A DNA stretch of 44,309 nt from a virus. The stretch's first letter is position 1. Each line of letters starts with the position of its first letter. Both the position numbers and the translations under genes were made by a program. The notes beneath the pieces are model-generated. The model was not told the origin of the DNA, did not search any database, and saw nothing but the letters and a program-made list of their open reading frames with translations. Shown here one piece after another: positions 4,583-37,282 of this stretch. Where the stretch lies: positions 1-44,309 of the IMG/VR virus record IMGVR_UViG_3300046689_000634. One strand, written 5' to 3'.

Positions 4583-5275
4583 ATGGCAACGAGAGAGAGC
4601 GGAAAGATGAAGGCTTACGTCGGGCAGACGCGCGCGGCCGTGCTCATCGACGAGCTCGCCGGCGCGGGCATCGGCGAGTGCGTGTGCCGCGGAGAGTTTC
4701 CCCCGCGGCGGTCGTTCTCGTGGTTCTACGACAACGGCGCGTTCAGCGACTTCAAGGCGGGCCGGCCGTTCGCCGTCGCGAAGTTCTGGCGCGAGCTCGC
4801 GCACATGGTCGACGTGGTCGAGCTGCAGGGGCACACCCTGCCCGACTTCGTCGTGCTGCCTGACCTGGTCGCCGGCGGCTGCGCGTCGCTGACCGAGTCG
4901 GCCAGCTGGCTCGAGGTCGTGCGCGGCTACGCGGCGCGCGGCGTGCGGTTCTACGTCGCGGTGCAGGACGGCATGACCGCGGCCGACGTCGAGGGGTTCC
5001 TCGAGCTCGCCGGCGACCTGGTGAGCGGCTTGTTCGTCGGGGGCTCCCTGCCCTGGAAGCTCGAGACAGGCGCCGCCTGGGTCACCCTGGCGCACGCGCG
5101 CGGCCTTCTGTGCCACGTCGGGCGCGTCGGCACCGCGGCGCGCGTGCAGTGGGCGCTCCGCATCGGTGCGGATTCGATCGACAGCTCGCTGCCGCTGTGG
5201 AGCTCGGCCAAGCTCGGCATCTTCCTCGAGGCGCTCCGCGGTCGGACGCGCTTCGGGCTGCAGGAGGTGGCGTGA
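4583..5275 (+). CDS. TIM-barrel protein resembling TGT/DpdA-type base-exchange enzymes
   Basis: ATG 4583 sits 7 bases after GGAGG; 230 residues. Motifs spread over a barrel-like pattern: YDNGAF (49-54), VVLPD (Asp94), VAVQDGM (Asp129), FVGGS (151-155), CHVGR (177-181) and GADSIDSS (Asp197, Asp200). Equivalents of these (GGxxVGE-like, late-barrel GxDxxD) occur in tRNA-guanine transglycosylases and in DpdA, which inserts 7-deazaguanines into DNA. This rests on recalled motif similarity, not alignment. The length is about half that of a full TGT, and no preQ0-making genes are present. It heads its own operon under the operator shared with int. Alternative: an uncharacterised TIM-barrel hydrolase. 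Confidence 0.55.
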   Translation: MATRESGKMKAYVGQTRAAVLIDELAGAGIGECVCRGEFPPRRSFSWFYDNGAFSDFKAGRPFAVAKFWRELAHMVDVVELQGHTLPDFVVLPDLVAGGCASLTESASWLEVVRGYAARGVRFYVAVQDGMTAADVEGFLELAGDLVSGLFVGGSLPWKLETGAAWVTLAHARGLLCHVGRVGTAARVQWALRIGADSIDSSLPLWSSAKLGIFLEALRGRTRFGLQEVA

Positions 5276-13963: not shown

Positions 13964-14362
13964 ATGACGAAACCGAAAGTGCCGGGCGCCGGCCCGACGG
14001 CCGACGAGCAACCGCGGCAGCAACCGACCAACGCGCCAGCCATCAAGGTGCGCGCGATCCGCGAGGGCTACTACGAGCACCTCCGGCGCTTCCCGGGCGA
14101 CATCTTTGAAATCCGCGGGGACCGCTACCCGGCCGACGTCGTGCGGCAGATCGGCGCGGCCGACGGCCGCGGCACCGTGCCGTTCACCCTGCACAAGGCC
14201 GGCGAGGTGATCGAGTTCTCGGAGACGTGGATGGAGCTCGTCACCGACCAGAGTCTGCCGCTGAACCAGCGCACCGCGCAGCAGATGCTGACCGAGGAGC
14301 ACGACAACCTCCTGCGCGATCGCATCGGGACCTCGACCGGCAATCAGAACCCGCTCGGCTGA
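13964..14362 (+). CDS. Hypothetical head-completion-region protein, 132 aa
   Basis: ATG 13964. A disordered Pro/Gln N-terminus (25 residues) precedes a small beta domain (AIREGYYEHLRRFPGDIFEI) and a charged helical tail (QQMLTEEHDNLLRDR). Position between head and tail genes suggests a small structural protein. The EGYYxxLRRxPGDxFE phrase is common in phage proteins of this position, but the function is unknown to me. Confidence 0.65.
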   Translation: MTKPKVPGAGPTADEQPRQQPTNAPAIKVRAIREGYYEHLRRFPGDIFEIRGDRYPADVVRQIGAADGRGTVPFTLHKAGEVIEFSETWMELVTDQSLPLNQRTAQQMLTEEHDNLLRDRIGTSTGNQNPLG

Positions 14363-14364
14363 CG

Positions 14365-17300
14365 ATGCCGTCGAACACGACGCCGGCGACGGCCCAGGAC
14401 CTGGGGACGTTTCCGTTCGCGACGTTCACCGCGAGCGTGGTCGGGACGTCGGCGCCGTACTACGAGGTGTGGTTCAAGTTCACGCCGACGGCGACCCAGA
14501 CGCTCGGGCTCAACATCCACGCGCCGATCGCGGGGAACTACTGGCCGGAGAGCACGCTGTGGACCGGCACGCCGCCCGCCGCGCTCACGCCCTATCCGAC
14601 CGTGCAGGTCGACGCCATCAACTCCGCGGCGGTGTTTCCGGTGGTCGCCGGGGTCACCATCTACGTGCGCGTGCGCCAGGCGAACACCGGGCTCGGCATC
14701 GACGGCCCGATGTCGCTGACGGGCTTCGTCGCGCCCAACATCGCGCCGGCCGGCACCGTGATCGCGATCCCTGACGCGGACATGGGGTTCTGGGGCGCGG
14801 AGCTCACCGCGGCGGTGGGCGGCGTCTCGCGCTACAACCCCGCGATGCCTGTCTCCGAGTGGGGGGACATGCTCGTGCTCGGCGGCCGCACGGCCCTCAA
14901 TCCGAAGCCGACGATCACGGACATCAAAATCTACGACGACCCGCTCGGCGCCTGGACCCTCGTCGCGACGATCCCGGGGATGCTCGGCAACTCGGCGATT
15001 TACCAACAGATCAAGGCGAGCCCGGGCAGCGGCTCGTTCTACTTCGGGGGCACGTCTGGGGGCGGTGCCGTGTTCCTGCACCGCGCCAGCTCCGCGGGCG
15101 TCGTCCTCGGGTCGTGGACCCTGCCGACCAACTCGAAGCAGCTCGCGGCGATGGCGATCAGCCGCGACGATGCGCGCGTGTTCTACAGCTCGCTCAACGC
15201 GGGGCAGGCGATCCATGCGTACGACCTGGTCGGCAACGCCGCGCTGCCCGACCTGGTCGCGGCCGCGGCGACCTACGCGCAAGACCTGCTCGTGCTCGCC
15301 GACGGCAGCGTGATCGTGTCCTATCAGGGCACGGGCTCGAACCAGGTCAAGCGGTTCAGCGCCGCCGGCGCGCTGCTCAACACGTACAGCTTTCCCGGGT
15401 TCGACTGCCATCGCGTGGCGCGCGACCCGGCCGACGACGCGGCGACGTTCTGGATCTGGTTCCATGTGGGCGGGCAGAAGACGTCGCGCTTCAGCCAGGT
15501 GCGCGTGGCCGACGGCACGGTGCTCGTGACGTTCGTCGCGCCGATCTACCTGGGCGGCGCCTCCAACGAATACACCGACGCGGCGCCCACCTGGGGCACG
15601 TCGAATACGTGCCCCTTCCTCGTGTACCAGGGCTTCGGCGGCAGCGGCGGCGGCCCAGGCGGCCCGCCCGACACCGGCGGCGGCCCCACCCCTGGCGATG
15701 GAAGCGGCGGCGGCGGCGGTGGCAGCGCGGCGTATCCGCCCGAACCGTGCGAGCTCGGGCCGCCGGTGGCGGTGTGTTGGAGCGGGCAGCCGTTGCGCCC
15801 GCCGGCGGTGGAGATGGTCGCCGGGCCGGCGCTCGCGACGAGGAGCTCGAGGGCGGCGACCCCGCGCACGACGACGATGCCGGCGGCGGCGATCGTCATC
15901 ACGGACTTTGTCAACGCGCCCGCGGCCATCCTGTCGGCGGTGGATGGCACGTACCTGGGTAGCGTGCCGCTGTCGGCCACCGACTTCGGCGACTACCTGC
16001 CGAGCGGCATCCTGTGTTTGTTCGACACCAACGACAGCAACAAGGTCGTGCTGTTCGCGGGGACGACGGCGACCGAGCTCCTGCGGCTCGGCCCCTTCGA
16101 CCTCGGGGCGTACAACATCAGCAGCGACCAGCTGCACACGTTCGTCGTCGCGACGCGCCTCGGCGGGCCCAACGGCGGGCTCGCGAAGATCCGTACCGTC
16201 TCCGACACGGGCGTCGTCGGCGGGACCACCTGGACGCTGCCGACGACGTCGTACGGCCTGTTGGGGATGGCGCCGAACCCGACGCGCACGATCCTCTACT
16301 ACACGAGTCTCACCACCGGTGGCGGCGGCACGGGCTCGGCGGTGTACCGCTACGACCTGGTCAACAGCGTCGCCCTCTCGAACCTCGCCGCCGCGGTGAC
16401 GAACTACTCGGCGACGAAGGACGTGGTCGTGCTCGCGGACCAGTCGATCCTGGTGGGGTACCACTCGGCCATCTTTGGGCAGCAGGAGAAGATCGTCCGC
16501 TACGACCCGAGCGGCGCGGTGCTGAACACCTACACCCTCGGGCTCCGCAACGACGTCATCCTCAATCGGTTCAACCGCGCGATCGACGGCACGTCGATCT
16601 GGGTGTGGCTCGAGCCCGCCTCGGGAGCGTTTCCGCACACCGTCTGGTTCAAGCAGATCCGGCTCACCGACGGCGTCGTGCTCACCACGCTGACGCCGGT
16701 GGAAGCTGGCTCGGCGGGCAATCCGGCGCTCGGGCAAATCTCCAACTCCTGCCCGATTCTGCAGTATCCCGGCCCTGGCGGCGGCCCGGGCGGCCCGCCG
16801 GACACCGGCGGCGGCCCGACCCCGGGCGACGGGAGCGGGAAGGGCGACAGCGCGGAGGCGACCTACCCGCCGGGCGCGTGCGACGTCGCGCCGGCCGCGG
16901 CGCCGTGTTGGGACAGTCAACCGCCAGGTCCGCCGGCGGTCGAGATGGTCGCCGGCCCGGCCCTCGTGCGCGCGAGCTCGAGCGCGCCGACGCCGCGCGT
17001 GGTGACGACGATGCCGGCCGCGCTGATCCTCGCCACCGATACCGGCCCGCCGGCGGCGCTGATCAATATCCAGCTGGCGACCTTGGTCCGCACCGTGCCG
17101 CTGCCGAGCAGCTCCTCCGTCGCGGTCCTGCCGGACGGGCGGTACTCGATCATCAACGGCGACGTCAGCACCAGTAAGGTCGTGCAGGTCTATGCGGCCG
17201 ATGACACGTTGCTGACGGCCGTCGCCGGCATCCCGTCGGCGACCTGGGCGCCGGATTCCCCGATCGCGGCGGCGAATGGGTCCTTCTACATCGGCCAAAA

Positions 17301-18057
17301 ATCGGCCGTCCCGCCGAAGCTGTACAAATACTCGCCCGCCGGCGCGGTCCTCGACAACTGGACGTTGCCCACCGGCGGCGTGGCCCTCGGGTCGATGGCG
17401 GTCGCGCTCGACGAAAGCGTCTGTTACTTCACGACCGCGCTCGCGCAGCAGCCCGTGCATCGCTACGACCTCGTCAACCGCGCCGCGCTGAGTGACCTGG
17501 TGGCGGGCCGCACCGGCTACTACACGCTGCCCAACATTTTCGCGGTGCCGGGGTCGACCGACATCGTCGTCACGTACAAGCGCGCGGCCGACGGGTTCGC
17601 GGACGCCATCCGCTACACCGCGGCCGGCGCCGTCGTCACCACGTATGTCGCCGGCGCCTCACCGAGCGCCACCGCGCATGGCGCCCTCGACCCCGCGCAA
17701 ACCGCCACCTGGTGGCTCCGCACGTTTCCCACGAACGATGCCAACGAGACGTCCACGTTCGTCGAGTTCGATCTGCTCACGGGCGCGGCGGTTCACACGT
17801 ACATCGTGCCCGGCATCGCGGGGGTGCCGCTCGGCGTGTGCGGCTGGATCAAGCGGGCCATCACCGTGACCACCGGCGGCCCGCCTGGCGGGGGCGGCCC
17901 GCCTGGCGGCGGCCCGGCGCCGGGCGACGGGAGCGGGCGCGGCGACAGCGCGGCGGCGACCTATCCGCCCGGCCAGTGCGTCGTGGCGCCGGCGGCGGCG
18001 CCGTGTTGGTGGGGTCAACCGAGTCAACCGCCCTCAGTCGAAATGGTGAAGCCATGA
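14365..18057 (+). CDS. Triple beta-propeller virion protein with Gly/Pro hinges, 1,230 aa
   Basis: The N-terminal 130 residues resemble a jelly-roll/pre-peptidase C-terminal domain (YYEVWFKFTPTATQTLGLNI). Three related units of about 370-400 residues follow. Each holds propeller-like repeats (for example VYRYDLVNSVALSNLA, VHRYDLVNRAALSDLV), then a Gly/Pro hinge and a module with two Cys and the closing motif PPxVEMV (YPPEPCELG..VCW, YPPGACDVA..PCW, YPPGQCVVA..PCW). Hinges lie at about 15640-15850, 16770-16980 and 17870-18057. It sits directly before tail tubular A. A surface appendage or receptor-binding role is inferred. No catalytic residues identified. Confidence 0.7.
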   Translation: MPSNTTPATAQDLGTFPFATFTASVVGTSAPYYEVWFKFTPTATQTLGLNIHAPIAGNYWPESTLWTGTPPAALTPYPTVQVDAINSAAVFPVVAGVTIYVRVRQANTGLGIDGPMSLTGFVAPNIAPAGTVIAIPDADMGFWGAELTAAVGGVSRYNPAMPVSEWGDMLVLGGRTALNPKPTITDIKIYDDPLGAWTLVATIPGMLGNSAIYQQIKASPGSGSFYFGGTSGGGAVFLHRASSAGVVLGSWTLPTNSKQLAAMAISRDDARVFYSSLNAGQAIHAYDLVGNAALPDLVAAAATYAQDLLVLADGSVIVSYQGTGSNQVKRFSAAGALLNTYSFPGFDCHRVARDPADDAATFWIWFHVGGQKTSRFSQVRVADGTVLVTFVAPIYLGGASNEYTDAAPTWGTSNTCPFLVYQGFGGSGGGPGGPPDTGGGPTPGDGSGGGGGGSAAYPPEPCELGPPVAVCWSGQPLRPPAVEMVAGPALATRSSRAATPRTTTMPAAAIVITDFVNAPAAILSAVDGTYLGSVPLSATDFGDYLPSGILCLFDTNDSNKVVLFAGTTATELLRLGPFDLGAYNISSDQLHTFVVATRLGGPNGGLAKIRTVSDTGVVGGTTWTLPTTSYGLLGMAPNPTRTILYYTSLTTGGGGTGSAVYRYDLVNSVALSNLAAAVTNYSATKDVVVLADQSILVGYHSAIFGQQEKIVRYDPSGAVLNTYTLGLRNDVILNRFNRAIDGTSIWVWLEPASGAFPHTVWFKQIRLTDGVVLTTLTPVEAGSAGNPALGQISNSCPILQYPGPGGGPGGPPDTGGGPTPGDGSGKGDSAEATYPPGACDVAPAAAPCWDSQPPGPPAVEMVAGPALVRASSSAPTPRVVTTMPAALILATDTGPPAALINIQLATLVRTVPLPSSSSVAVLPDGRYSIINGDVSTSKVVQVYAADDTLLTAVAGIPSATWAPDSPIAAANGSFYIGQKSAVPPKLYKYSPAGAVLDNWTLPTGGVALGSMAVALDESVCYFTTALAQQPVHRYDLVNRAALSDLVAGRTGYYTLPNIFAVPGSTDIVVTYKRAADGFADAIRYTAAGAVVTTYVAGASPSATAHGALDPAQTATWWLRTFPTNDANETSTFVEFDLLTGAAVHTYIVPGIAGVPLGVCGWIKRAITVTTGGPPGGGGPPGGGPAPGDGSGRGDSAAATYPPGQCVVAPAAAPCWWGQPSQPPSVEMVKP

Positions 18058-24010: not shown

Positions 24011-27000
24011 ATGCCCGGGCCCCAGGACCCGAACGTCAACCCGTTCGACGCGATCGCCGATCAGCTGTTTGGCGGCGCGCCGACGCGCATGAAGGTCGCC
24101 GGCGACGTCGCCGACCAGGACACGCCCGACGACGCGGCGAAGATCCTCGACCTGTCGCACGCGACCGGCCTGCCGCCGGATGTGGTGCGGCAGAACCTGG
24201 CGGGCATCAAGAAGCACGTCGACAAGCTGGCGACGCCCTACCAGGACATCCTCAACCAGACGCCGCACACCGCGACCCTGATGCAGCAGCCGACCGAGCG
24301 GGCCGCGGCGAAGGACGACCTCGAGCAGCTCGGCACGCTCGAGTGGCTGACCAACGCGATCCCGCGCGCCTGGTCCCGCGGCAACGCCTCGCTCGAGCTC
24401 TCGCAGCTGCGGTTCAAGGACCTGATGGGCGACACGCCCCTGACGGCCGCGGAGCACCGGCGCATCGCGGACCTGAAGCAGCAGACCGGCGAGGGCGGCG
24501 CGCTCGGCACCGAGGGGCACTGGTTCCGCGGCGCGCTCGCCGGCTCCACCGAGCAGCTCCCGCTGTTCCTCGGCTCGTTCAAGGAAGGGTTCCACTACGG
24601 CCTGGCCGGGCAGACGCTCGGCCTCGTCGGCGCCGTCGGCGGCGGCATCCTCGGCGGGCTCGTCGCCGGCCCGCCCGGCATCGTGGGGGGCGCGCTCGAG
24701 GGCGCGACCGCGCTGACCGCGGCCGGCGGCGAGGCCGGCTTCCTGGTGGGCAACGCGAAGTTCGCCTTCGAGACGGCGGCGGGGCAGAGCTACGAGGCGC
24801 TGCTCAACATGAAGGACGAGCTCGGGCGCCCGCTCGACCCGAAGGTCGCCCGGGTGGCCGCCATCGCCGCCGGGATGGCGAACGGCGTGCTGATGACCGC
24901 CGGCACCCGGCTGCTGCTCAAAGGGCTCCCAGGCGCCGACAAGCTCGTGGGCGCCGCCGGCCAGAGCGCGATCGAGACGGCGCTCAAGGTGCCGCGCGTC
25001 CGGTCCGCGCTGCTGCAGCTCGCCGGCCAGTACGGCAAGACGCTGACCCTCGAGACGATCAACATGGTCGGCCAGCGCGCGGTGCAGATCCTGGCCGAGG
25101 AGGCCGCGAAGGTCGCCGACACCGCCCAGGGCGGGCTGCCGCCGCCGCCCGAGGGCGACCAGTCGTTCTTCCGCGAGGACGGCACGCAGAAGGGCGAGGG
25201 GTTCTTCGGCAACCTGCGCCTGCCGACCGGCGTCGCGAGCGAGTTCTCAATCGCCGACAGCGAGAAGATCAAGGACAAAGCCGGCAAGTACCTCGACTAC
25301 CCGAGCCTGGTGCCGACGCTGACGGTCGACGAGGTCAAGGCGGTGATGGCCGCGGCCGCGGACCCGACCGGCAAGACGAAGATCCCGGGCAGCGTCTACA
25401 CGAAGGCCGAGGCGTTCGCGCTCGAGCGCCAGAAGGCCGGGCTGCCGTTCTTCGCGCAGCCGGGCGAAGCGAACACCACCGTCTACCCCGAGCTCGAGCG
25501 CCTGGCCGCCGGCCGCACGCGCATCCCGCTGCGCTCGCCCATGGAGATTGCCGCCGACCTGGTGCAGTCGGGCCTGAGCGCCGCGCAATCGTTCGCGCTG
25601 CTCACGCTGCCCGGCCCGACGGGGCACTTCCTGCGCGAGGTCGCGCGCGCCCACGATGCCGGCCAGGTCGAGACGTGGCTGCTCGCCGTCGGCAAGGGCG
25701 TCGAGAAATCCGCGACCGCGAAACGCGCGCCGGCGGTCGTCGAGCAGCTCCTCGCGCAGGCGACCCAGGACGGCCCCCACGAGACGCTGTACGCCCCGAT
25801 CGACGACTGGACGACGTACTGGCAGAGCAAGGGCGTCGACCCCGCGGAGATGGCGACGCGCGTCACCGGCGACCGCCAGGCGTACCAGCAGGCGCTCGAC
25901 GGCAAGACCGAGCTCGCGATCCCGACCGCCAAGTACGCGGTGACGCTCGCCGGCACCGAGCACAACGCGCACTTCGCGAAGTTCCTCCGGCTCGACCCGA
26001 GCCTGATGAACGCCGACGAGGCGGCGCGGTTCCAGCAGGAGCTCGCGAAAGAGTTCCGCAAGCCGACGACCCCGCCCGCGGGCGCGCCCGCCACCCCCGA
26101 GCAGGAGGCGGCGACGGCCATTCACGCGGACCAGACCGAGCGGCTGATGCGCCAGGGCCTGACGCGGGCCAACGCGGAAACCAGCGCGACCGTCATGCAA
26201 CGGTGGATCACGACGTTCGCGCGCGTGATGAACCAGGACCCGCGCGACATCTATCGTCGCTACGGGTTCACCATCGGAGGACCCAATGAAACAGCACAAG
26301 AGGCCATCGCCCGCCGTGCGGCCGACGAAGCACGCGGCGAACGTCCAGCGACTACAGCTCGAGCGGGCGAAGGCGGCGCCGCCGCCGGTGAACCCGCAGC
26401 CACAGCTCCAGGCGGCGCAGGGGGTACGGAAGAACCCGTCGCCGGCGCCGGGCGCCCCACCGGACCCGGGGGAGCTGATCTAACCGCCGTCATGCAGGCG
26501 GCCACCGAGGCCGACCTTAACAAGCTGCTCGTCCACCCGGACGAGCGGCTCAGCAACCTGGCGGCCGACGAAATCAACCGGCGCGCTACAATAGGCGCAC
26601 CTGATGCCTCCGAAGCCGGAACCGGAGCTGCGGCCGGGGAACGACCCGGCGACGGTGGCGTACAACGCGAGGCTCCTGGCGCAGCACGGGTACCCGATGC
26701 CGGAGGCGAAGGCGCACGCCCTGAACCACGCCGGCTACCGGCCCCCGATCCAACCGAGCGATTCGTCCGGCCCACCCCCGAGTCCGTCGCTGCCCGCGTC
26801 ACCCCAGAAATAACGCGCGAGCTGGAGCGCATGCTCCAAGAGGCCGAGGACCAGCCCTACGAGGGCCGGCGGTGGCACTTCCTCGACCCGGAGGAGTCCG
26901 GTGCGCGCGGGCTGCGCGGCAACGCCGCCGGCGGCCAGGCCATCATCCAGAAGGGCCACGGCCAGGCGGATGTCTACGGCGACATCCTCACGTACTCGCC

Positions 27001-30000
27001 GTTGAACCCGGTCACGTCGGGCGAGCGCAAGGGCGAGCTCGCGCGCGGTGGCAAGTGGGGCGCCGACGCGCCCGGCGCCAAGGTCGTCAACGCGATCCGC
27101 GACCTGCTCGCCGGCAAGGGCGTCAAGAACAACCTCGGCGAAGGCGCGCTGCGGGTGGCCGAGCGGCGCGCGATCAACGACTACAGCGTCATCGAACGCC
27201 CGATGTATCCCCCGCATTGGGGCACCGACGCGACGCCTGACTTCGTCGCCACGGTCCAGCGTCTGATCGACGCGGTCGACGACCCGACGAAGACGCTCGA
27301 GCAGGGCGGCGTCGGCATGGGCGTACGCTTCCCCGACCAGCCCGCGGGCGGGGCGACCGGCCTCGATGCCGCGCCCGCCGAGCGCAAGGACGGCGCCCTG
27401 ATCCTGTCGGCCGCGCGCCCGACCGAGACGCAGAACACGCCGTACCGGCGGTCGCCGCTCACCTCGACGCTGGCCTCCTTCAGGGCGCTGCCGGCGAAGC
27501 TCGCCCAAGCGGCGGCCCTGTTCCGCTCGTACCACCTCCTGACGAAGGAGGAAGCGCGGACGAAGGACCCCGCGGTGCTCGTCGACCGGGCCGTCACCGC
27601 GATGAAGCGCAACCTGCGGGCCCTGTGGGAGGCGTACCCCGCCGACTGGCGCGAGCGCGCGCAGCACTGGTACGTCGGCGCGAACCGCATCGCGCACGAG
27701 CTCGCCGGCGCGCATGGCGTCACCGTCGACCAGGCGGTGGGCGTGCTCGCGGCGCTCTCGCCGCAGATGGACTGGTTCAAGAACGTCAGCCTCGCCGAGC
27801 GGGTCCTGCGCTCGGTGAAGGAGTTCCAGCAGACCAACCCGACGTTCACGCCCGACCTCTTCGCGGACTACGAGCGCCGCGCCCTGGCGACGACGGAGGA
27901 CCGCATCACGCAGCGCCGGCGGGCGGGCGCGCCGTTCACGCGCGCCGAAGAAAAGGCCTTCCGCGCGAAGAAGGCCGCGATCGTCGACGAGCTCCGCGCG
28001 CAGGTCGTCGGGCACTCGTGGACGGACCTCGACCTCGAGGGGAAGGCGGTGTTCCTCCGGGCGGTCGATGAGCGCACCCCCCGGGACTATTCGGTCATTT
28101 CGCCGGAAGGCGATCGCCCGGACCTGGCGCGCACGGCGAGCGGCGCGCCCGCCGCGATCGGGTGGGGCACCTACAACTTCATCGCGAACGCGATCAGCAT
28201 CGCGCTCGACGGCAGCCCGGAGAACATCAGTGCGCGGTTGGGCATCGAGCACAAGGTGCGCTCGTTCTTCAACAACGTCAGCCATCCCTTCGACCCGCGG
28301 TTCGTGACGATCGACACGCACGCCGTCGCGGCGGCGTTCCTGCACCCGTTCTCGGGCGACGCCGAGCCGGTGCGGAACGCGATGGGCATGAAGCACCCGG
28401 ACGGCGGCTCGGTCCCGCAGCACGCGCCGACGGGGCTCTCGGGCACCAACGGGATCATCGCGCAGGCGTACTTCGACCTCGCGCACGAGCTCGGCGTGGA
28501 CCCGCGCGCGCTGCAGTCGGTGACGTGGGAAGCGGTGCGCGGCCTCTTCGAGCCCGGCCAGAAACGCGGGGCCGCGGGGGTGCAACTCGGCTCGAAGATC
28601 GACGCCCTCTTCAAACAGTACGAGCGTGGTAAAATCAGCCATGCCGAGTTCGTCACCGCGCTCCACGACGCCGCCGGCGGATTCGTCCCACCCGCCTGGG
28701 TCGACTACCCGGTATCGGAACAAGGCGCACTGGCTGGCGCATCAGTTCTTCCCCGACGACCCGAGCTTTCCGCTGGACCCGGAGGTGGAGGCGTCGATTC
28801 CGAAGGCGCTGCCGGGGCGCGTCCCGCAGAACGAGACGGAGTACTACTCGGACCTGTAGGCAGCCGCACCTTCGAGCAGGGCCCGCCGCCTGACCAGGGC
28901 GGGCTGTTCGACCACCCCCCCACCGACACCCTCGACACCGGCGAACAACAGCCGCGCCTACCCGGCGCCGAAGGCGTGCGCGACGAGAACGTCCCCACGC
29001 CGGCGGTCGCCGAGGCGCCGTTCTCGCTGACCGCCGAGATCGCGCAGCGCGCCGCCAAACAGAAGACGCTGTTCCAGGGCCCCCCGCACGCGCCGATCGT
29101 CCTCTACCAGGGCGTCTATCACGGCAGCCCGCACCTGTTCGATCGCTTCGACATCACCAAGGTGGGCACCGGCGAGGGCGCGCAGGTCTACGGGTGGGGG
29201 CTCTACTTCGCGAGCCGGAAGGAAGCCGCGCAGTGGTACCGCGAGAACCTGGCCGGCAAGCCGCGGCCGGCGCACCTCGCGCACGAGGGCGTCAACATCT
29301 TCGACGAAAACGGGCTCTACCACCTGCGTGACTCGGCGCCGGGCGACCGGCTCCCCAAACGCGCGCAAGACCCGAAGCTGCAGGACGGCCTGCTCGAGCT
29401 CAACCAGATGCTCGCGCACGACCGCCTGAAACCAGGGCCCGAGGGGCTCGCGACCGCGCGGACGTTTCTCGAGGCGGGCCTCGCACGCGACAAGGAGCAC
29501 CTCAAGTCGTTCGCGCGCGAGAACCCTAACAACCCCGACGTGCAGCTGGCGACCCGCGCGATCAAGCGGGGCATATCGGAGAAGCAGAACGCCCTGGCGG
29601 TGCTCGACACGTACGGCGACAAGCTCACGATCGAGCCCCCGCAGAAACCCGGGCGCCTCTACCACGTCGAGCTCCCCGACGATGCGACGTTCCTGAATTG
29701 GGACAAGCCGCTGCACGAGCAGGACCCGAAGGTACTCGAGATTCTCGACAACTCGGGCCTGGGCAAGGCGCTCGGCCAGGGACACTACGAGGACGCGCGC
29801 GACAACTTCCTGCGCGACCTCGAGCAGGCCGTCGGTCCCGACAAGGCGCCCGAGGCCGTCGCGCTCGCGACGCGCCTGTTCGAGCACCCCGAGGAGCTCC
29901 GACCGAAACAGGCCGACGACGAGCGGACGTATCTCTGGCTCCATCAACTGACCAAGGGAACCAACATCGACCTGAACCGCATCCTCGACATTGACCGCTA

Positions 30001-33000
30001 CGGCATCGACCAGCACTACGTCGAGAGCGTCGCCGAGCGGATGATGGACGAGCGGGCGCGGACGAAGGCCGACGACTATATCGACCAGCACGCCGACGAC
30101 GCGCCCGGCTCCGACCTGCAGGTCAAGGAAGGGAAGGACAAGCTCTCGTACGACGTCGTGGACTCAAGCGGGCACGTCTACGATTCCTTCGAGACAGAGG
30201 AGGAGGCGCAGACCGCGGCCGACGACGCACGCCAGAGGCTCGAGGACGAGTGGCAGCAGGATGCCTACCAGTTCGAGCGCAATCGGCTGAACGTCGACGA
30301 CTACCGCGCGAAGGCGCGCGAGCAGCTCGGGGTCGGGGCCGGCCCGCTCGGGTTCCTCGGCCTGGACCGCGGTGAGAACACCGGCGAGGTGCTCTACCAG
30401 AAGCTCGCCAACGCCGTCGGCCCTGAGAACGCGAGCCGGCAGCTGGCGGCGCTCGGGATCAACGGCATCAAGTATCTCGACCAGGGCAGCCGCGCCGCGG
30501 GCGAGGGCTCGCACAACTACGTCGTCTTCGACGATCGCCTGCTCGACATCACGAAGTACGAACAGCGGGGCGACCAGCCGCGGGGCTCGCTGTCGATCGG
30601 CCCGAACCGGGAGCTGCACATTCAGCTGCTCGAGGGCAAGGACCTCTCGACGTACCTCCACGAGAACGCGCACGGATTCCTCGAGGTGATGGGCGACCTG
30701 GTCGCCGAGCTCCAGGCCGCGGGCGACCAGGGGCGCACGCCGGAGCAGCAGAAGTTCATCGCCGACTACGGCGAGCTGCTCAAGTTCATGGGCGTCACCG
30801 AGCGATCGCAGATCGGCACACCGCAGCACGAGAAGCTCGCGCGCGCGTTCGAGGCGTACCTCCACGAGGGCAAGGCGCCGAGCGTCGAGCTGCGCGGCGT
30901 GTTCCACACGATCAAGGGCTGGATGCTCGACATCTACAAATCGCTGAAAGAGCTCAACGTCACCCTCACGCCAGAGGTGCGTGGCGTGTTCGATCGGCTG
31001 CTCGCGAGCGAAGACGCCATCAAACAGGCGCAGGAGCAGGCCGACGTGCGGCCGTTGTTCACCACCGCGGCCGAGGCCGGCATGAGCCCCGAGGCCTTCG
31101 CGAAGTACCGCGACGTCGTCGCGCAGGCCTCCGCGGCCGCGCAGGACGAGCTCGACCGGCAGACGCTCGGCGAGCTGCAGCGCAAGCGCACGGAGTGGTG
31201 GCGCGCCGAGGCCGACGTCACGCGCCAGGAGGTGCTCGAGGCCTTCAACGACCACCCGATCTACCGCGCGCTCGCGCTCATCAAGAACGGCGACCGACCC
31301 GACGGCACGCCGATCACCGAGGGCGAGGAGGGCATCCCGATCAAGCTGGCGAAGGCCGACCTCGCCGACTACCCGCCCGAGGTCCTGGCGGCGCTCAGGA
31401 AGCACGACGCCTACCGCAACGAGGGTGGCGTCGCGCCCGAGGCGCTCGCCGAGCTCACGGGGTTCTCGTCGGCCGACGAGCTCGTCCAGGCGATCGCGCA
31501 GTCGCCGCGGTTCGAGGTGGCGGTCGAGGCCGAGGTCGCGAGCCGGATGCAGCAGAAGCACGGCGACATGCTGCTCGACGGCACGCTGCCGGCGAAGGCC
31601 GAGGCCGCGGTGTTTGGCGTCGGCCGGCAGCGCGTGGTCGAGGCCGAGCTCAAGGCGCTCACCTCCGAGCTCGTGCGCGGCACCATCCCGCCGCGCGAGG
31701 CCATCCGCGCGCACGCCGAGGAGCGCATCCGCGGCACGCGCATCCGCGACCTGAAGCCGGGGCTGTTCCTGGCGGCCGCGCAGCGCGCGAGCGCGAAGGC
31801 CTTCGAGCTCTTGTCCCAGGGCCGTGACCGCGTCGGCGCCGTGCAGGCCAAGCAGCAGGAGCTCGTCAACCTCACGCTCTACCGCGAGGCGATGAAGGCG
31901 CTCGACGAGGTGCAGGTCGCGGCCGACTACCTGCGCGGGTTCGATCGCAAGACGACGCGGTCCCACATCGGCAAGGCGGGCGGCGAGTACCTCGATCGGA
32001 TCGACAGCATCCGCGCGCGCTTCGACTTCACCAAGCAGACGCTGCGCCGCATCGACAGCATGACGTCGCTCGATCGGTGGGCGCAGGCGCAGGCGGCCGC
32101 GCACATGATTCCGCTCGACCTGCCCGACGAGGTCCTGAACGAGTCGCGGCGCACCAGCTACAAGAACCTCACGCTCGAGGAGCTGCGCGGCGTGCGCGAC
32201 GCGGTGAAGCAGATCGCGCACTTCGCGCGGCTGAAGGACCGGCTGCTCGAGAACGAGCGCAAGCGCAACCTGGCCGAGGTGTCGCTCGAGACGACGGCCA
32301 GCATCATCGAGCACGCCAAGAAGACCATGCCGCAAGGCCCGGGCGGCCTGCACGCGCCCGGCACCGCGCAGACGCGCCGCTTCGCCACGTTCCTCGCCTC
32401 GCACATCAAGCTCGCGACGTTCCTCCGTGAGATGGACGGGTTCAAAGACGCCGGCCCGCTCTGGGAGCACGTCATGCGGAAGCTGAACATCGCCGGCGAC
32501 AACGAGGCGGTCGCGAACGAGAAGGCCACGATCGCGGTCGGCGAGATTTTCGACGCCTACAAGGGCCAGGAGACGACGCTCCACAAGCCGCTCTACATCC
32601 ACGCGATCGACGGCAGCCTCTCGAGGGCCGAGCGCCTGATGGTCGCGCTGAATTGGGGCAACGAGGGGAACCGGCAGCGCCTCCGTGACGGCTATCACTG
32701 GACGAACGACCAGGTCGAGGCCATCCTGCACACGCTCGACGCGCGCGACGTGAAGGTCGTCAACGAGCTCTGGGCGCACCTCGAGAGCTACTGGCCCGAC
32801 ATCGCGGCGAAGCAGCGGCGCGTGACGGGCATCGTCCCGGCGAAGGTCGTGGCGACGCCGTTCCAAACGCTGGCCGGCGACTTCACCGGCGGCTACTTCC
32901 CGCTGAAGTACGAGGGGCAGCTGTCGGCGCGCGCGGCCGCGCACGTCGACGCCACGTTCGCCGAAGGCATCAAGCAGGCCAGCTACAACAACGCGAGCAC

Positions 33001-34366
33001 CGACCGCGGCCACACCAAGGCCCGGCTCGAGCACGTCGAGCTCCCCGTGCGGCTCGACCTGGGCGTCATCACGCAGCACCTGAACCAGGTCATCCACGAC
33101 CTGACGCACCACGAGGCGCTCATGGACGTGTCGCGGCTGCTCGGGCACAAGGACGTGCAGCAGGCGATCTACGCGCACTACGGCGACATCACCTACGGCC
33201 AGATCAAGGGCGCGCTGCGCGACATCGGGTTCGGCAGTCAGCCGGCGCCGGGCTGGTATCAGACGATCAACAGCATCCGCGCGAACATGGTCACCGCCAC
33301 GCTCGGCTTGAACGTGGTCACCTCGTTGATGCACAGCGCGCAGATCGGCCGCGGCATGGCGCGCGTCGGCGTGGCGCCGGTGCTCAAGGGCTTGAGCAGC
33401 TGGCTCTCGAGCGCGAAGAACGCCGAGGGCTCCGTCGCCTGGATTGAACAGAACAGCGACATGATGCGGCTGCGCTGGAAAACGCAGCAGCGCGAGCTCA
33501 ACGAGGTCCGCAACCAGGTCGGCCTCAACCAGGGCAAGGTCAGCGCCGAGATTCACGACGCGCTCGCGAAGCTCGGGGTCGACCCGCACGTCATGCCGGT
33601 GATCGCGGATTCGTACTACTACATGATTCGGAAGATCGTGCAGTTTGCGGAGATTCCGACGTTCCTCGGCGCCTACGAGAAGGCGATGAAGGAGACGAAC
33701 GCCAACCACGAGAAAAGCATCCAGCTCGCCAACCAGGCGGTGATCGATTCGATGGGCTCGGGCATGGTGAAGGACCTGTCGCAGGTGCAGCGCGGCGGGA
33801 TGGGGCGCGTCTTCACCACGTTCTACGACTACCACAACGCGGTGTACAACCAGGTCTACGAGCTCGTGAAGGCGAGCGAGAACCCCGGGCGCAAGGTCGT
33901 CGACGCCTCGCTGCTGCTGCTCGCGCCGATCGCGCTCGGCACCCTGATCCACACCCTTACCGGGCCGAGCAAGAAGAAGAAGCGCGGCGAGTCGGATTGG
34001 GCGCTGTGGGCGAAGGAGCTCGGCGGCGAAGGCCTCGACTACGGGCTCAACTTCTTCGTCGGCGCGCGCGAGCTCTCGGGCGCGCTCACCGGCCGATCGT
34101 ACGCGGGCCCCGCCGGCCTGCGGATGTTCAACACCGGCCGGCAATTCATCTACCGCGTGGGCGACCTGACGCAGGAGGAGTTCGAGAACGGCGGCGCCAA
34201 GGCCGAGAAGAAGATCGGCGCCGCGCTCAAGGCGACCAACGAGCTCGCCGGCGAGCTGTTTGGGTACCCCGCCCGGCAGGTCGATCGCACGGCCGAGGGC
34301 ATCAATGCCGTGATGTCGGGCAAGAGCAAGAACTACAGCGACATCGTCTTCGGGCCCAGGAAGTAA
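24011..34366 (+). CDS. Giant polyvalent internal virion/ejection protein, 3,451 aa
   Basis: Occupies the gp16 position. Visible parts: helical N-terminus; Gly-rich hydrophobic stretch about 205-305 (VGGGILGGLVAGPPGIVGGA), likely membrane-active; a KGEGFFGNL...YPSLVPTLTVDEVK module about 387-490; a domain about 1150-1560 with ALSPQMDWFKN and VTIDTHAV, reminiscent of DUF7178 phage proteins; an ADP-ribosyltransferase-like domain about 1700-2195 (YHGSPHLFDRFD, GEGAQVYGWGLYF, GINGIKYLDQGSR); a zinc-peptidase motif HENAH (2217-2221) followed by AFEAYLHEGKAP; a long helical C-terminus with a Lys-rich patch KKKKR. The modules are those of phage polyvalent proteins ejected with DNA. Three small genes appear nested in linkers at 758-824, 864-934 and 1543-1616. 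Confidence 0.85.
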   Translation: MPGPQDPNVNPFDAIADQLFGGAPTRMKVAGDVADQDTPDDAAKILDLSHATGLPPDVVRQNLAGIKKHVDKLATPYQDILNQTPHTATLMQQPTERAAAKDDLEQLGTLEWLTNAIPRAWSRGNASLELSQLRFKDLMGDTPLTAAEHRRIADLKQQTGEGGALGTEGHWFRGALAGSTEQLPLFLGSFKEGFHYGLAGQTLGLVGAVGGGILGGLVAGPPGIVGGALEGATALTAAGGEAGFLVGNAKFAFETAAGQSYEALLNMKDELGRPLDPKVARVAAIAAGMANGVLMTAGTRLLLKGLPGADKLVGAAGQSAIETALKVPRVRSALLQLAGQYGKTLTLETINMVGQRAVQILAEEAAKVADTAQGGLPPPPEGDQSFFREDGTQKGEGFFGNLRLPTGVASEFSIADSEKIKDKAGKYLDYPSLVPTLTVDEVKAVMAAAADPTGKTKIPGSVYTKAEAFALERQKAGLPFFAQPGEANTTVYPELERLAAGRTRIPLRSPMEIAADLVQSGLSAAQSFALLTLPGPTGHFLREVARAHDAGQVETWLLAVGKGVEKSATAKRAPAVVEQLLAQATQDGPHETLYAPIDDWTTYWQSKGVDPAEMATRVTGDRQAYQQALDGKTELAIPTAKYAVTLAGTEHNAHFAKFLRLDPSLMNADEAARFQQELAKEFRKPTTPPAGAPATPEQEAATAIHADQTERLMRQGLTRANAETSATVMQRWITTFARVMNQDPRDIYRRYGFTIGGPNETAQEAIARRAADEARGERPATTARAGEGGAAAGEPAATAPGGAGGTEEPVAGAGRPTGPGGADLTAVMQAATEADLNKLLVHPDERLSNLAADEINRRATIGAPDASEAGTGAAAGERPGDGGVQREAPGAARVPDAGGEGARPEPRRLPAPDPTERFVRPTPESVAARVTPEITRELERMLQEAEDQPYEGRRWHFLDPEESGARGLRGNAAGGQAIIQKGHGQADVYGDILTYSPLNPVTSGERKGELARGGKWGADAPGAKVVNAIRDLLAGKGVKNNLGEGALRVAERRAINDYSVIERPMYPPHWGTDATPDFVATVQRLIDAVDDPTKTLEQGGVGMGVRFPDQPAGGATGLDAAPAERKDGALILSAARPTETQNTPYRRSPLTSTLASFRALPAKLAQAAALFRSYHLLTKEEARTKDPAVLVDRAVTAMKRNLRALWEAYPADWRERAQHWYVGANRIAHELAGAHGVTVDQAVGVLAALSPQMDWFKNVSLAERVLRSVKEFQQTNPTFTPDLFADYERRALATTEDRITQRRRAGAPFTRAEEKAFRAKKAAIVDELRAQVVGHSWTDLDLEGKAVFLRAVDERTPRDYSVISPEGDRPDLARTASGAPAAIGWGTYNFIANAISIALDGSPENISARLGIEHKVRSFFNNVSHPFDPRFVTIDTHAVAAAFLHPFSGDAEPVRNAMGMKHPDGGSVPQHAPTGLSGTNGIIAQAYFDLAHELGVDPRALQSVTWEAVRGLFEPGQKRGAAGVQLGSKIDALFKQYERGKISHAEFVTALHDAAGGFVPPAWVDYPVSEQGALAGASVLPRRPELSAGPGGGGVDSEGAAGARPAERDGVLLGPVGSRTFEQGPPPDQGGLFDHPPTDTLDTGEQQPRLPGAEGVRDENVPTPAVAEAPFSLTAEIAQRAAKQKTLFQGPPHAPIVLYQGVYHGSPHLFDRFDITKVGTGEGAQVYGWGLYFASRKEAAQWYRENLAGKPRPAHLAHEGVNIFDENGLYHLRDSAPGDRLPKRAQDPKLQDGLLELNQMLAHDRLKPGPEGLATARTFLEAGLARDKEHLKSFARENPNNPDVQLATRAIKRGISEKQNALAVLDTYGDKLTIEPPQKPGRLYHVELPDDATFLNWDKPLHEQDPKVLEILDNSGLGKALGQGHYEDARDNFLRDLEQAVGPDKAPEAVALATRLFEHPEELRPKQADDERTYLWLHQLTKGTNIDLNRILDIDRYGIDQHYVESVAERMMDERARTKADDYIDQHADDAPGSDLQVKEGKDKLSYDVVDSSGHVYDSFETEEEAQTAADDARQRLEDEWQQDAYQFERNRLNVDDYRAKAREQLGVGAGPLGFLGLDRGENTGEVLYQKLANAVGPENASRQLAALGINGIKYLDQGSRAAGEGSHNYVVFDDRLLDITKYEQRGDQPRGSLSIGPNRELHIQLLEGKDLSTYLHENAHGFLEVMGDLVAELQAAGDQGRTPEQQKFIADYGELLKFMGVTERSQIGTPQHEKLARAFEAYLHEGKAPSVELRGVFHTIKGWMLDIYKSLKELNVTLTPEVRGVFDRLLASEDAIKQAQEQADVRPLFTTAAEAGMSPEAFAKYRDVVAQASAAAQDELDRQTLGELQRKRTEWWRAEADVTRQEVLEAFNDHPIYRALALIKNGDRPDGTPITEGEEGIPIKLAKADLADYPPEVLAALRKHDAYRNEGGVAPEALAELTGFSSADELVQAIAQSPRFEVAVEAEVASRMQQKHGDMLLDGTLPAKAEAAVFGVGRQRVVEAELKALTSELVRGTIPPREAIRAHAEERIRGTRIRDLKPGLFLAAAQRASAKAFELLSQGRDRVGAVQAKQQELVNLTLYREAMKALDEVQVAADYLRGFDRKTTRSHIGKAGGEYLDRIDSIRARFDFTKQTLRRIDSMTSLDRWAQAQAAAHMIPLDLPDEVLNESRRTSYKNLTLEELRGVRDAVKQIAHFARLKDRLLENERKRNLAEVSLETTASIIEHAKKTMPQGPGGLHAPGTAQTRRFATFLASHIKLATFLREMDGFKDAGPLWEHVMRKLNIAGDNEAVANEKATIAVGEIFDAYKGQETTLHKPLYIHAIDGSLSRAERLMVALNWGNEGNRQRLRDGYHWTNDQVEAILHTLDARDVKVVNELWAHLESYWPDIAAKQRRVTGIVPAKVVATPFQTLAGDFTGGYFPLKYEGQLSARAAAHVDATFAEGIKQASYNNASTDRGHTKARLEHVELPVRLDLGVITQHLNQVIHDLTHHEALMDVSRLLGHKDVQQAIYAHYGDITYGQIKGALRDIGFGSQPAPGWYQTINSIRANMVTATLGLNVVTSLMHSAQIGRGMARVGVAPVLKGLSSWLSSAKNAEGSVAWIEQNSDMMRLRWKTQQRELNEVRNQVGLNQGKVSAEIHDALAKLGVDPHVMPVIADSYYYMIRKIVQFAEIPTFLGAYEKAMKETNANHEKSIQLANQAVIDSMGSGMVKDLSQVQRGGMGRVFTTFYDYHNAVYNQVYELVKASENPGRKVVDASLLLLAPIALGTLIHTLTGPSKKKKRGESDWALWAKELGGEGLDYGLNFFVGARELSGALTGRSYAGPAGLRMFNTGRQFIYRVGDLTQEEFENGGAKAEKKIGAALKATNELAGELFGYPARQVDRTAEGINAVMSGKSKNYSDIVFGPRK
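26286..26483 (+). CDS. Nested small gene 1, +1 frame, 65 aa
   Basis: ATG 26286 has a strong ribosome binding site, CGGAGG, 5 bases upstream, although it lies inside the giant gene. The product is basic and Pro/Gln-rich (MKQHKRPSPAVRPTKHAANV). By hand count 58 of 65 sense codons end in G or C (89%), while the giant frame over the same bases has 35 of 66 (53%). The rest of the genome is close to the nested value. So the nested frame carries the coding signature here and the giant frame reads it as a Gly/Ala/Glu linker. Function unknown. Confidence 0.6.
   Translation: MKQHKRPSPAVRPTKHAANVQRLQLERAKAAPPPVNPQPQLQAAQGVRKNPSPAPGAPPDPGELI
26604..26813 (+). CDS. Nested small gene 2, +1 frame, 69 aa
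   Basis: Same frame as nested gene 1. The product looks like a genuine small protein: MPPKPEPELRPGNDPATVAY, NARLLAQHGYPMPEAKAHAL, NHAGYRPP. Of the first 50 codons 47 end in G or C, against 25 of 50 for the giant frame. The last 19 codons lose this bias as the giant frame regains it. No obvious ribosome binding site is present (TACAATAGGCGCACCTG precedes ATG), so translation may depend on coupling. Function unknown. Confidence 0.6.
   Translation: MPPKPEPELRPGNDPATVAYNARLLAQHGYPMPEAKAHALNHAGYRPPIQPSDSSGPPPSPSLPASPQK
28641..28859 (+). CDS. Nested small gene 3, +1 frame, 72 aa
   Basis: Same +1 frame. The first 22 codons overprint the C-terminal end of the upstream module, whose own frame keeps high GC3 up to about 28705. 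From there to the stop at 28857 the nested frame has 45 of 49 codons ending in G or C, the giant frame 19 of 49. The sequence NKAHWLAHQFFPDDPSFPLD and VPQNETEYYSDL reads as a natural acidic C-terminus. Alternative: it is the relic of a separate ancestral gene end now read through. ATG 28641 or GTG 28626; no clear ribosome binding site. Confidence 0.55.
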   Translation: MPSSSPRSTTPPADSSHPPGSTTRYRNKAHWLAHQFFPDDPSFPLDPEVEASIPKALPGRVPQNETEYYSDL

Positions 34367-37282
34367 ATGGTCGGCCCCAAAACGCCGCGCGCCCCGCTCG
34401 CCAAGCAGATCGGCGCGAACGGCTCGACCGGCCTCGTGCGCGTCGACCCGGCCGGCCATCCCGAGGCGGTGCCCTACGCCGAGCTCGTGCCCTTCCTCAT
34501 CGACCAGGGGGTCGTCTTCCCCGGCGGCGGCACGGGCGGCGGCGGGGGTGCCGGCGGGGGACAAGGCATCCCCGGGCCACAGGGCGAGCCGGGCGACCCG
34601 GGTGACCCCGGGCCACCCGGCCCACCTGGCGCACCAGGGGCGTCAGGACCGACGGGTCCGGCCGGCCAAGGCCTGCCGGGCCCGCCAGGCGATCAGGGCG
34701 ACCCCGGCGAACCGGGACCGCCAGGACCGGCGGGATCGATCGGCGCGACCGGCCCGGCCGGCGTCGGGCTGCAAGGCTTGCCCGGGCCCCCGGGACCGCA
34801 GGGCGATCAGGGCGACCCGGGTGACCCCGGCCCGCCCGGCGCGGCCGGGGCCACGGGAGCGTCAGGACCGACGGGGCCGGCCGGCCAAGGCTTACCGGGG
34901 CCGCCTGGCGACCAGGGCGACCCTGGCGAACCAGGGCCACCGGGACCGCAGGGACTCCAAGGGCCACAGGGCGCGACCGGCGCGAATGGCGCCGACGGCG
35001 CGACCGGGCCGCAAGGGAGTCAGGGATTCCCCGGGACCGTGGGTCCACAGGGCGACCAGGGCGACCAGGGCGATCCTGGCCCGCCTGGGCCGCAGGGGCT
35101 CCAAGGGCCCCAGGGCGCCACCGGCGCGAACGGCAACGACGGCGCGACCGGGCCGCAGGGGATTCAAGGCCTGCCCGGGCCGGTGGGTCCACAGGGCGAG
35201 CAGGGCGATCCTGGTGACCCCGGCGTGCCAGGACCGTCGGGGCCGGCCGGCGCGACCGGGCCGGCGGGTGTCGGGATTCAAGGCGTACCCGGGGGACCGG
35301 GCCCACAAGGGGAGCAGGGCGACCCGGGCGATGTCGGGCCGCCAGGACCGCAGGGCGTGCCTGGGCCGCAGGGCACGACCGGCGCGAACGGGAACGACGG
35401 CGCGCCCGGTTCGACGGGGCCGCAAGGGATTCAGGGCTTCCCCGGGCCGGTCGGTCCAGTGGGCGACCAGGGCGACGCCGGCGATGTCGGGCCGCCTGGC
35501 CCGCAGGGCGTGCCCGGCCCACAAGGTGCCACCGGCGCGAATGGCAACGACGGCGCGCCCGGCTCGACGGGACCCCAAGGGATTCAGGGATTCCCCGGGC
35601 CGGTGGGCCCGCAGGGCGACCAGGGCGATCCTGGTGACCCAGGCCCGCCTGGCACGCCAGGCGCGGCAGGGGCCGCAGGGGCGTCAGGACCGACGGGGCC
35701 GGCCGGCCAAGGCTTACCGGGGCCGCCTGGCGACCAGGGCGACCAGGGCGATCCTGGCCCACCAGGACCGGCAGGGCCGATCGGCGCGACCGGGCCGGCG
35801 GGCGTCGGGATTCAAGGCGCCCAAGGGGGACCGGGCCCGCAAGGCGAGCAGGGCGACCCGGGCGACCCGGGCCCCCCAGGACCGGCGGGTGCCGCGGGCG
35901 TCGCGGGTTCGACTGGCGCCATGGGACCGCAGGGACCACAGGGTGTGCCCGGCGCGGAGGGCGCCGAGGGCGAGGTCGGGCCGCCTGGACCCGTCGGGCC
36001 GCAAGGTCCGCTCGGCGCGACGTTCCCGCTCTACGCCGTCGTCGACGACTTCAACCGCAACGACGAGTCGCCGCTGAAGGCGAGCACCTGGCGGGCGGTC
36101 GCCTACTACGCCAACCGGCTCAAGCTCACCTCGAGCGCGGTCGCCCAGGTGACGACGCCGTCGGGCGCGATGGCGTGGAACACGCCGTTCGACCTCAACT
36201 TCAACGCCTACGTGCGCGTGCCCGTGCTGCCGAACGTCGACACCAGCTTCGTCGCGATCGACATGGTGGTGGACCCCGCGGGCACCGGCGACGGGTTCCG
36301 CGTGCAGCTGTACAACGGCAGCGGCAACTTTCTCCTGTACCTCTATCGCATCACGGGCGGGGCCACCGTCGGCCTGGGCCCGGTGCCGGTGCTCCTGCCC
36401 ATCGTCGCGGGCAACTGGATCGGCATCGAGCGATACGGGACGACGATTCGGACGTGGCTGCGGGCCGGCGGGGTCTGGACGAAGGTGCAGGAAACCATCG
36501 ACACCTCGTCGGCGGTGCCGTTGTACCCGACGCTGGTGATCGACGGCACGACCGTCGCGCGGCTCGACGACTTCGGCGGCGGGCCGGTGCACGGCGAGGT
36601 GCCCGCGAACGTCGCGCTGACGGATGCGAGCAACACGTTCGCCGAGCGCCAGTACATCAAGCCGGGGCCGAGTTACGCCTACCCGCAGCTCTGCCTGACC
36701 GACACCACCGCCGCCGCCAACCAGCAGAAGTTCCGCTTGGTCAATGCCGTCGGGCGGCTCTACCTGCAGCCCATGGACGACGCCGAAACGACGGCCGCCG
36801 CGACCGTCACGATCGATCGCACCGGGCTGATCGCCACCACGGGCGCGTACGTGGAACGCAACCGCGCCGCGGCGATGGGCGAGTGGCAGGACGAACCGTT
36901 CAGCGCGGCGAAGTTCTCGGGGCAGAGTCCGCTGGTCTGGACCGTGGGCTCGGCGGCGATCATCAACAATCGGTACAGCGTCGTGGGCAAGACGTTGTTC
37001 TGGCAGCTGTATCTCTCGTGGTACTCCGGCGCGAACGTGCTCAGTGGGTCGCCGAACGGCGTGCTCTTTCTCACGCTGCCGGGCGGCTTCACCTGTGCGG
37101 GCCACGGCGGTATCACTGCGGTCGACTTTAGCGCCGGGATCGCCGGGATGCCCTACAACGGGATGCTGTTTCTCTCGTCGACCGCCGGCAACTATCTCCA
37201 ACTCAACGCCGGGGACAACCGCAACTTCGCCCTCACCGACATCCCCGGCCTCGTCTTCAACATCACGATCGAAATTGCATGA
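34367..37282 (+). CDS. Collagen-like tail fibre protein, 971 aa
   Basis: The first 60 residues ([20 protein letters not shown], Gly-rich hinge) probably attach to the tail. Residues about 65-547 are nearly unbroken Gly-X-Y repeats ([19 protein letters not shown] and variants), expected to form a collagen triple helix. The C-terminal 420 residues form globular domains ([20 protein letters not shown], a LamG-like beta sandwich; then [15 protein letters not shown] and a final domain ending in FNITIEIA), probably the receptor-binding trimer. Long arrays of Gly-Asp/Gln-Gln triplets favour hydration. It follows the internal proteins, the place of gp17 in T7. Confidence 0.88.
34558..36012 (+). repeat. 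Collagen-coding repeat tract
   Basis: About 485 Gly-X-Y triplets. At DNA level larger units of roughly 100-200 bases recur (for example GGCCGGCCAAGGCTTACCGG at two places; GGCGCGAATGGC variants). Such arrays expand and shrink by recombination, so fibre length may vary between isolates. Confidence 0.85.

Follow-up and report, generated by a model that had tools for sequence, protein, structure and literature searches.

Positions 28641-28859 of the viral contig analysed here are read as an embedded, independently started gene which encodes a small acidic protein and lies in the +1 frame of a giant ORF, just behind a DUF7178 domain; we put the probability of this reading at roughly 0.86. The window comprised the full 44,309 nucleotides of IMG/VR record IMGVR_UViG_3300046689_000634 (positions 1-44,309). 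Sequence comparison indicated that homologues of the small gene occur together with DUF7178 in numerous phages and prophages, where they are embedded in the DUF7178 frame, overlap it, stand separately or lie on the opposite strand. The features of the window on which the analysis draws are as follows.

24011-34366, plus strand: giant ORF of the polyvalent type, 3451 amino acids, which holds the small gene out of frame; the same-frame fusion is kept in relatives
27491-28711, plus strand: DUF7178 domain region of the giant protein, with the PF23802 match, the AlphaFold2 model and the fold matches
28253-28255, plus strand: codon of an invariant Lys (giant amino acid 1415, HKVRSFFNN), possibly catalytic
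28313-28315, plus strand: codon of an invariant Asp (giant amino acid 1435, VTIDTHA), possibly catalytic
28641-28859, plus strand: predicted embedded small gene, 72 amino acids from ATG to stop, +1 frame relative to the giant ORF
28712-28858, plus strand: giant-frame spacer read from the same DNA, rich in Gly, Ala, Pro and Arg and low in GC3
28713-28856, plus strand: conserved core of the small protein, YRNKAHWLAHQFFPDDPSFPLDPEVEASIPKALPGRVPQNETEYYSDL, with ten subfamily-invariant columns kept and 48-49% identity to the nearest relatives

The giant ORF and its frame switch

The giant protein matched Pfam PF23802 (DUF7178) at amino acids 1195-1270 (E 5.9e-25; 88.8 bits against a curated cut-off of 27) and the LPD22 domain (E 1.3e-13), with a further weak match to ART-PolyVal that was below the family cut-off. 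Its neighbours are T7-like structural genes (head-tail adaptor, major head protein, tail, internal virion protein and tail fibre). With several LPD and enzyme domains on one polypeptide (LPD22, an ART-PolyVal-like part and DUF7178) in a virion gene context, it belongs with the giant multidomain polyvalent proteins of phages, which are thought to be internal, ejected virion proteins (Iyer et al. 2017, PMC5512222); the position of the giant among the structural genes suggests the same for it. A search of that paper for overlap and frame terms gave no mention of out-of-frame embedded genes. Directly downstream of the giant is a gene for a 971-amino acid collagen-like tail fibre (34367-37282). Elsewhere in the window, two very long ORFs occupy the same DNA on opposite strands (14227-18057, plus; 14344-17460, minus), and the plus-strand ORF has no family match.

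GC3 of the giant frame was 0.956 except in three stretches in which it was low. In the stretch considered here, which begins with ATG 28641 and ends with the stop at 28857-28859, GC-ending codons between 28710 and 28856 numbered 45/49 in the +1 frame and 20/49 in the giant frame. The original prediction had reported this move of coding bias into the +1 frame (as 45/49 against 19/49), and had placed the takeover right behind the VPPAWVDYP sequence with the same stop; our results agree with it almost to the codon. When the giant peptide was encoded anew by 2000 synonymous redraws, GC3 in this stretch never fell below 0.84, and 49-codon windows with such a GC3 profile were confined to 26582-26585 and 28700-28727 within the giant ORF. 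An isolated indel error behind the frame switch is unlikely because a second IMG/VR contig (L001) agrees base for base across the stretch; the two are identical over 13.9 kb, with no gaps and with three mismatches, all at the very end of L001. The +1 frame also stayed open in 845 of the 2000 redraws, so that openness of the ORF alone is weak evidence, and it is the conserved +1 protein that makes the case.

A small protein family beside DUF7178

Relatives of the DUF7178 region were taken from viral contigs, bacterial and archaeal genomes and phage records. Translation of the DNA downstream of DUF7178 in all frames revealed a common small protein in the +1 frame, with a consensus of about DxxLxxLxxxGxPxTRENYLxxAYxxxxPxxxxAExExxLP. 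An HMM built without the window recovered the window ORF at E 1.4e-6, the nearest relatives of which were L105, L109 and L112, and the window keeps each of the ten columns that do not vary in seven giant-gene relatives, which form its subfamily. This similarity does not derive from the giant frame: among 2000 synonymous redraws that left the giant peptide unchanged, the highest score was 0.6 bits, against the 30.8 bits observed. Such conservation in the +1 frame indicates that the ORF is a real, conserved small gene. The embedded family to which it belongs is genuine and apparently undescribed so far.

The small proteins are acidic (pI below 5 in 64 of 79), and no match to them was found in Pfam or NCBIfam, among BFVD structures or among the PDB sequences of solved structures. 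In PHROGs, one family member only gave a marginal match, to phrog_6087 (E 0.0014). Residues 31-72 of the window protein, which form the core, were modelled by AlphaFold2 with a pLDDT of about 90. The window's own small peptide as query matched only the sister contig, and tblastn with the nested peptides at permissive E values returned only noise; the small-protein alignments A2 and A3 were too diverse for scans of the collections, while scans with single proteins worked.

A total of 79 distinct small-gene variants adjoining DUF7178 was obtained from loci which are related, so that these counts are not independent. Seventy-one were on the same strand and in the +1 register relative to DUF7178: 37 were embedded, the open DUF7178 frame continuing far beyond the small ORF, 27 overlapped the 3' end of DUF7178 and 7 came just after its stop. 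A further three followed the DUF7178 stop in another register (L095, L101 and L135), and five were on the opposite strand (L007, L011, L018, L066 and L067), the partner gene in these loci converging on the end of the DUF7178 gene. In addition, scans with the small protein only, with no DUF7178 anchor, gave 41 loci; DUF7178 was next door in 40 and the remaining one begins at a contig edge, which indicates that the two genes are near-obligate partners in the data searched. Prophages with the pair were also present in cultured bacteria, namely Jannaschia seohaensis DSM 25227, Pseudofulvimonas gallinarii DSM 21944 and Bradyrhizobium strains (loci L091, L088 and L098-L100). Among loci with long fused DUF7178 ORFs, the small gene was weak in L109 and was not detected in L020, L034, L106-L108, L110, L111 or L150; the +1 frame contained many stops in the low-GC loci L106-L108, L110 and L111. 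Rhodobacteraceae phage LS06-2018-MD07 (L084, OP947163.1) has a weakly matching copy of the nested ORF at 5091-5240 (E 3.7e-4), within a giant CDS whose only annotation is methyltransferase, and the record carries no feature for the nested ORF.

In the window phage itself, the nested ORF could be a decayed relic, once a gene and now a mere linker of the giant protein, and the change of the N-terminal GxPxT of most relatives to TTRYRN, together with a weak ribosome-binding site, fits such decay. The ORF is nevertheless intact, with its stop present, a +1 GC3 of 45/49 and the ten subfamily-invariant residues retained, and ATG 28641 requires of the giant frame a CAT His codon, which is rare elsewhere in the giant gene (4/82). 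A relic is on this evidence unlikely.

Selection on both frames and the start of the small gene

Differing sites at DUF7178-frame codon positions 1, 2 and 3 were compared in 18 close pairs, and amounted to.132/.079/.369 upstream of the small ORF and.322/.127/.081 inside it; inside the small ORF, the wobble position is that of the +1 frame. In 48 of 71 variants no stop interrupted the DUF7178 frame over the length of the small ORF, compared to 8.7 (sd 2.3) expected if only the +1 frame codes; phages of 42-55% GC are among the 48. The only very close relative of the window is practically identical to it, and the evidence for selection comes from other lineages. There, small ORFs were found fully enclosed by a larger ORF that is read in a different frame, with signs of selection on both, a pattern which indicates that in embedded cases both frames are maintained: constraint acts on the +1 frame, and the giant frame serves as an open spacer under loose constraint. 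Giant-frame identity among relatives over the spacer was 22.8%, against 17-18% expected from +1 coding alone. As this conservation of spacer residues is only slightly above the level forced by the +1 frame, and may be due to shared ancestry, no function is claimed for the spacer.

The N-terminal, DUF7178 and C-terminal pieces (the latter designated C1 and C2) of the giant were mapped in relatives. Convincing C1/C2 matches were always in the open frame of DUF7178 (L002, L003, L005, L006, L012, L016, L049, L064, L079, L094, L109, L150, L156, L160 and L161), while only the ART-like part was found in other ORFs (L042, L074-L076 and L089), in L042 with a short adjoining C1 match. The mapping argues that the giant is a real, conserved fusion. 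The alternative, that high GC has produced the giant ORF by chance and that the DUF7178 protein, the small gene and the downstream protein are three separate translation units, is quite unlikely. It is true that +1 coding alone would leave the giant frame of the window open with P 0.75, that the DUF7178 gene of L112 (67% GC) ends inside the small ORF, and that in L004 the downstream part may start at a frame-0 ATG. However, relatives of 42-57% GC are also open (for example L141, L159, L064, L079 and L161), where the chance of openness is mostly 0.002-0.07 (0.24 for L161), C1 and C2 do not leave the DUF7178 frame, and many giant ORFs extend thousands of bases past the small ORF.

An in-frame upstream ATG was present in the +1 frame in 59 of 64 testable variants, compared to 31.7 expected from the overlapping protein, and in 13 of 13 GC-rich embedded variants (3.3 expected). 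An ATG with a Shine-Dalgarno match of at least 5 bases was observed in 24 variants against 3.4 expected, and in L043, L060, L064 and L070 a GGAGG, written by the AGGI codons of DUF7178, is located five bases before the ATG. Because an upstream ATG accompanied by a Shine-Dalgarno motif is enriched sevenfold, the small gene appears to have its own start and not to be a frameshift product. Independent initiation at an internal ATG is thus demonstrated statistically for the family at the sequence level; in the window it would presumably take place at 28641, the only ATG nearby, upstream of which no clear Shine-Dalgarno sequence was seen.

Programmed frame use had been proposed in the original prediction, and in its explicit form a +1 frameshift near 28705 would add the +1 segment to DUF7178 as an alternative C-terminus, giving a shorter product. 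The +1 register of 71 of the 79 variants would suit such a mechanism, as would the fact that the conserved core in the window lies more than 60 nt from any start codon. Against this, several variants have a +1-frame stop shortly upstream of the ATG, and inspection of 28700-28715 by eye revealed neither a slippery heptamer nor a stalling stop codon; no slippery site was seen near 28700. Frameshifting is further disfavoured because copies exist on the opposite strand and, in L095, L101 and L135, in a different register after the DUF7178 stop; the +1 segment is accordingly not confined to extensions of the upstream frame. With start signals across the family and five opposite-strand variants, programmed frame use is not needed, and we consider it very unlikely. 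The notion of a compositional artefact of a Gly/Ala/Pro-rich linker was refuted: such linkers bring higher GC to the first two codon positions, but their amino acids do not explain the GC3 drop (simulated minimum 0.84), the +1-frame homology or the codon-position flip in relatives.

The independently started small gene is the one proven case of such a switch in the giant ORF, and the rule of three frame switches that had been suggested is not supported beyond it. Low giant-frame GC3 with high +1 GC3 was also observed at 26231-26470 and 26531-26830, and the +1 frame of the latter reads ...GNDPATVAYNARLLAQHGYPMPEAKAHALNHAGYRPP..., which looks protein-like. The two other nested peptides (1 and 2) had no relatives among the examined loci, and peptide 2 had no credible relative in phage records.

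Origin, parallels and possible role

A read-through fusion of separate genes had been put forward as the source of the giant. The nested frame does appear to be genuinely coding, and many relatives have a separate or overlapping small gene next to DUF7178, so that the arrangement could plausibly have arisen when the DUF7178 frame was extended through such a gene; the state of three separate genes that had also been anticipated was not found in relatives, C1 and C2 always sharing the DUF7178 frame. In the ancestral state, the small gene would have followed DUF7178. In some lineages loss of the stop would then have let the DUF7178 frame run on through the small gene, and in one set of lineages the extended frame would have acquired more domains and become the giant. 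Read in the giant frame, the small gene would yield the spacer rich in Gly, Ala, Pro and Arg, and it would have retained a start of its own. The direction of change would presumably be from separate to embedded to giant.

In architecture the embedded, dual-coded gene corresponds to Rz1 within Rz, the two-component spanins of lambda, T7 and P2, in which a small gene is embedded in or overlaps a larger phage gene, usually in the +1 frame, and embedded, overlapped and separated architectures are found. For that pair, the embedding of Rz1 in the +1 frame of Rz, the series of architectures and stop-codon loss as a route to embedding have been described (PMC6139136). Here, unlike Rz/Rz1, the host gene encodes a DUF7178 protein or a giant fusion, and there are pairs whose members lie on opposite strands. 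The two spanin products act together, as the small protein and DUF7178 probably do. An o-spanin lipoprotein needs a lipobox Cys. Cys is absent from the conserved region of the 47 embedded-type small proteins counted and from the 72 amino acids of the window protein, and a two-component spanin (o-spanin) was therefore ruled out.

The AlphaFold2 model of the DUF7178 domain (407 amino acids) had a pLDDT of 95.2. Its fold list was led by AGOG (1xqo; the best match, Z 7.8, 194 amino acids aligned), the queuine salvage enzyme DUF2419 (Z 7.6) and OGG1 (8xwc; Z 7.0, rmsd 3.5), the rows for these proteins spanning Z 7.8-6.6, which is below the level that would settle the fold; the best Foldseek match had an E of 0.47. 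The invariant Lys and Asp (K255 and D275 of the model) are 20 residues apart and were conserved in all of 84 sequences, and we take this Lys and the TIDTH Asp to resemble the HhH-GPD catalytic pair. DUF7178 aligns in fold with the HhH-GPD glycosylases AGOG and OGG1 and may share a catalytic Lys/Asp pair with them; its Z scores are under 8, it has no match among PDB sequences, and any glycosylase activity is putative. It is probably an HhH-GPD DNA glycosylase-like domain, given a moderate fold match. This glycosylase-like nature is absent from the name of the Pfam entry, and no mention of DUF7178 was found in the papers searched.

Since the small gene and DUF7178 nearly always occur together, the DUF7178 domain is probably the partner or target of the small protein, which could be an inhibitor, chaperone or subunit of this glycosylase-like domain. 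Ugi and p56 are small acidic phage proteins that inhibit a DNA glycosylase. The small proteins described here resemble them in acidity and differ in having no sequence match to any solved structure, and inhibition by them is hypothetical. It is conceivable, though on balance doubtful, that the small protein is a dedicated acidic inhibitor or immunity protein for a packaged and injected HhH-type DNA glycosylase domain; it would then shield the producing cell from the glycosylase destined for injection. If so, an antidote located inside the gene of the enzyme would mean that every cell which makes the enzyme also makes the antidote.

The family has no Pfam or NCBIfam entry and at most marginal PHROGs similarity, yet recurs in dozens of phage and prophage lineages, and the location of a small gene inside another gene makes it likely that annotation overlooks it. 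The series from opposite strand through separate, overlapping and embedded to embedded in a giant fusion would allow the origin of dual coding to be studied step by step. Finally, the near-exclusive pairing with DUF7178 provides a first handle on the role of an uncharacterised, probably glycosylase-like domain.
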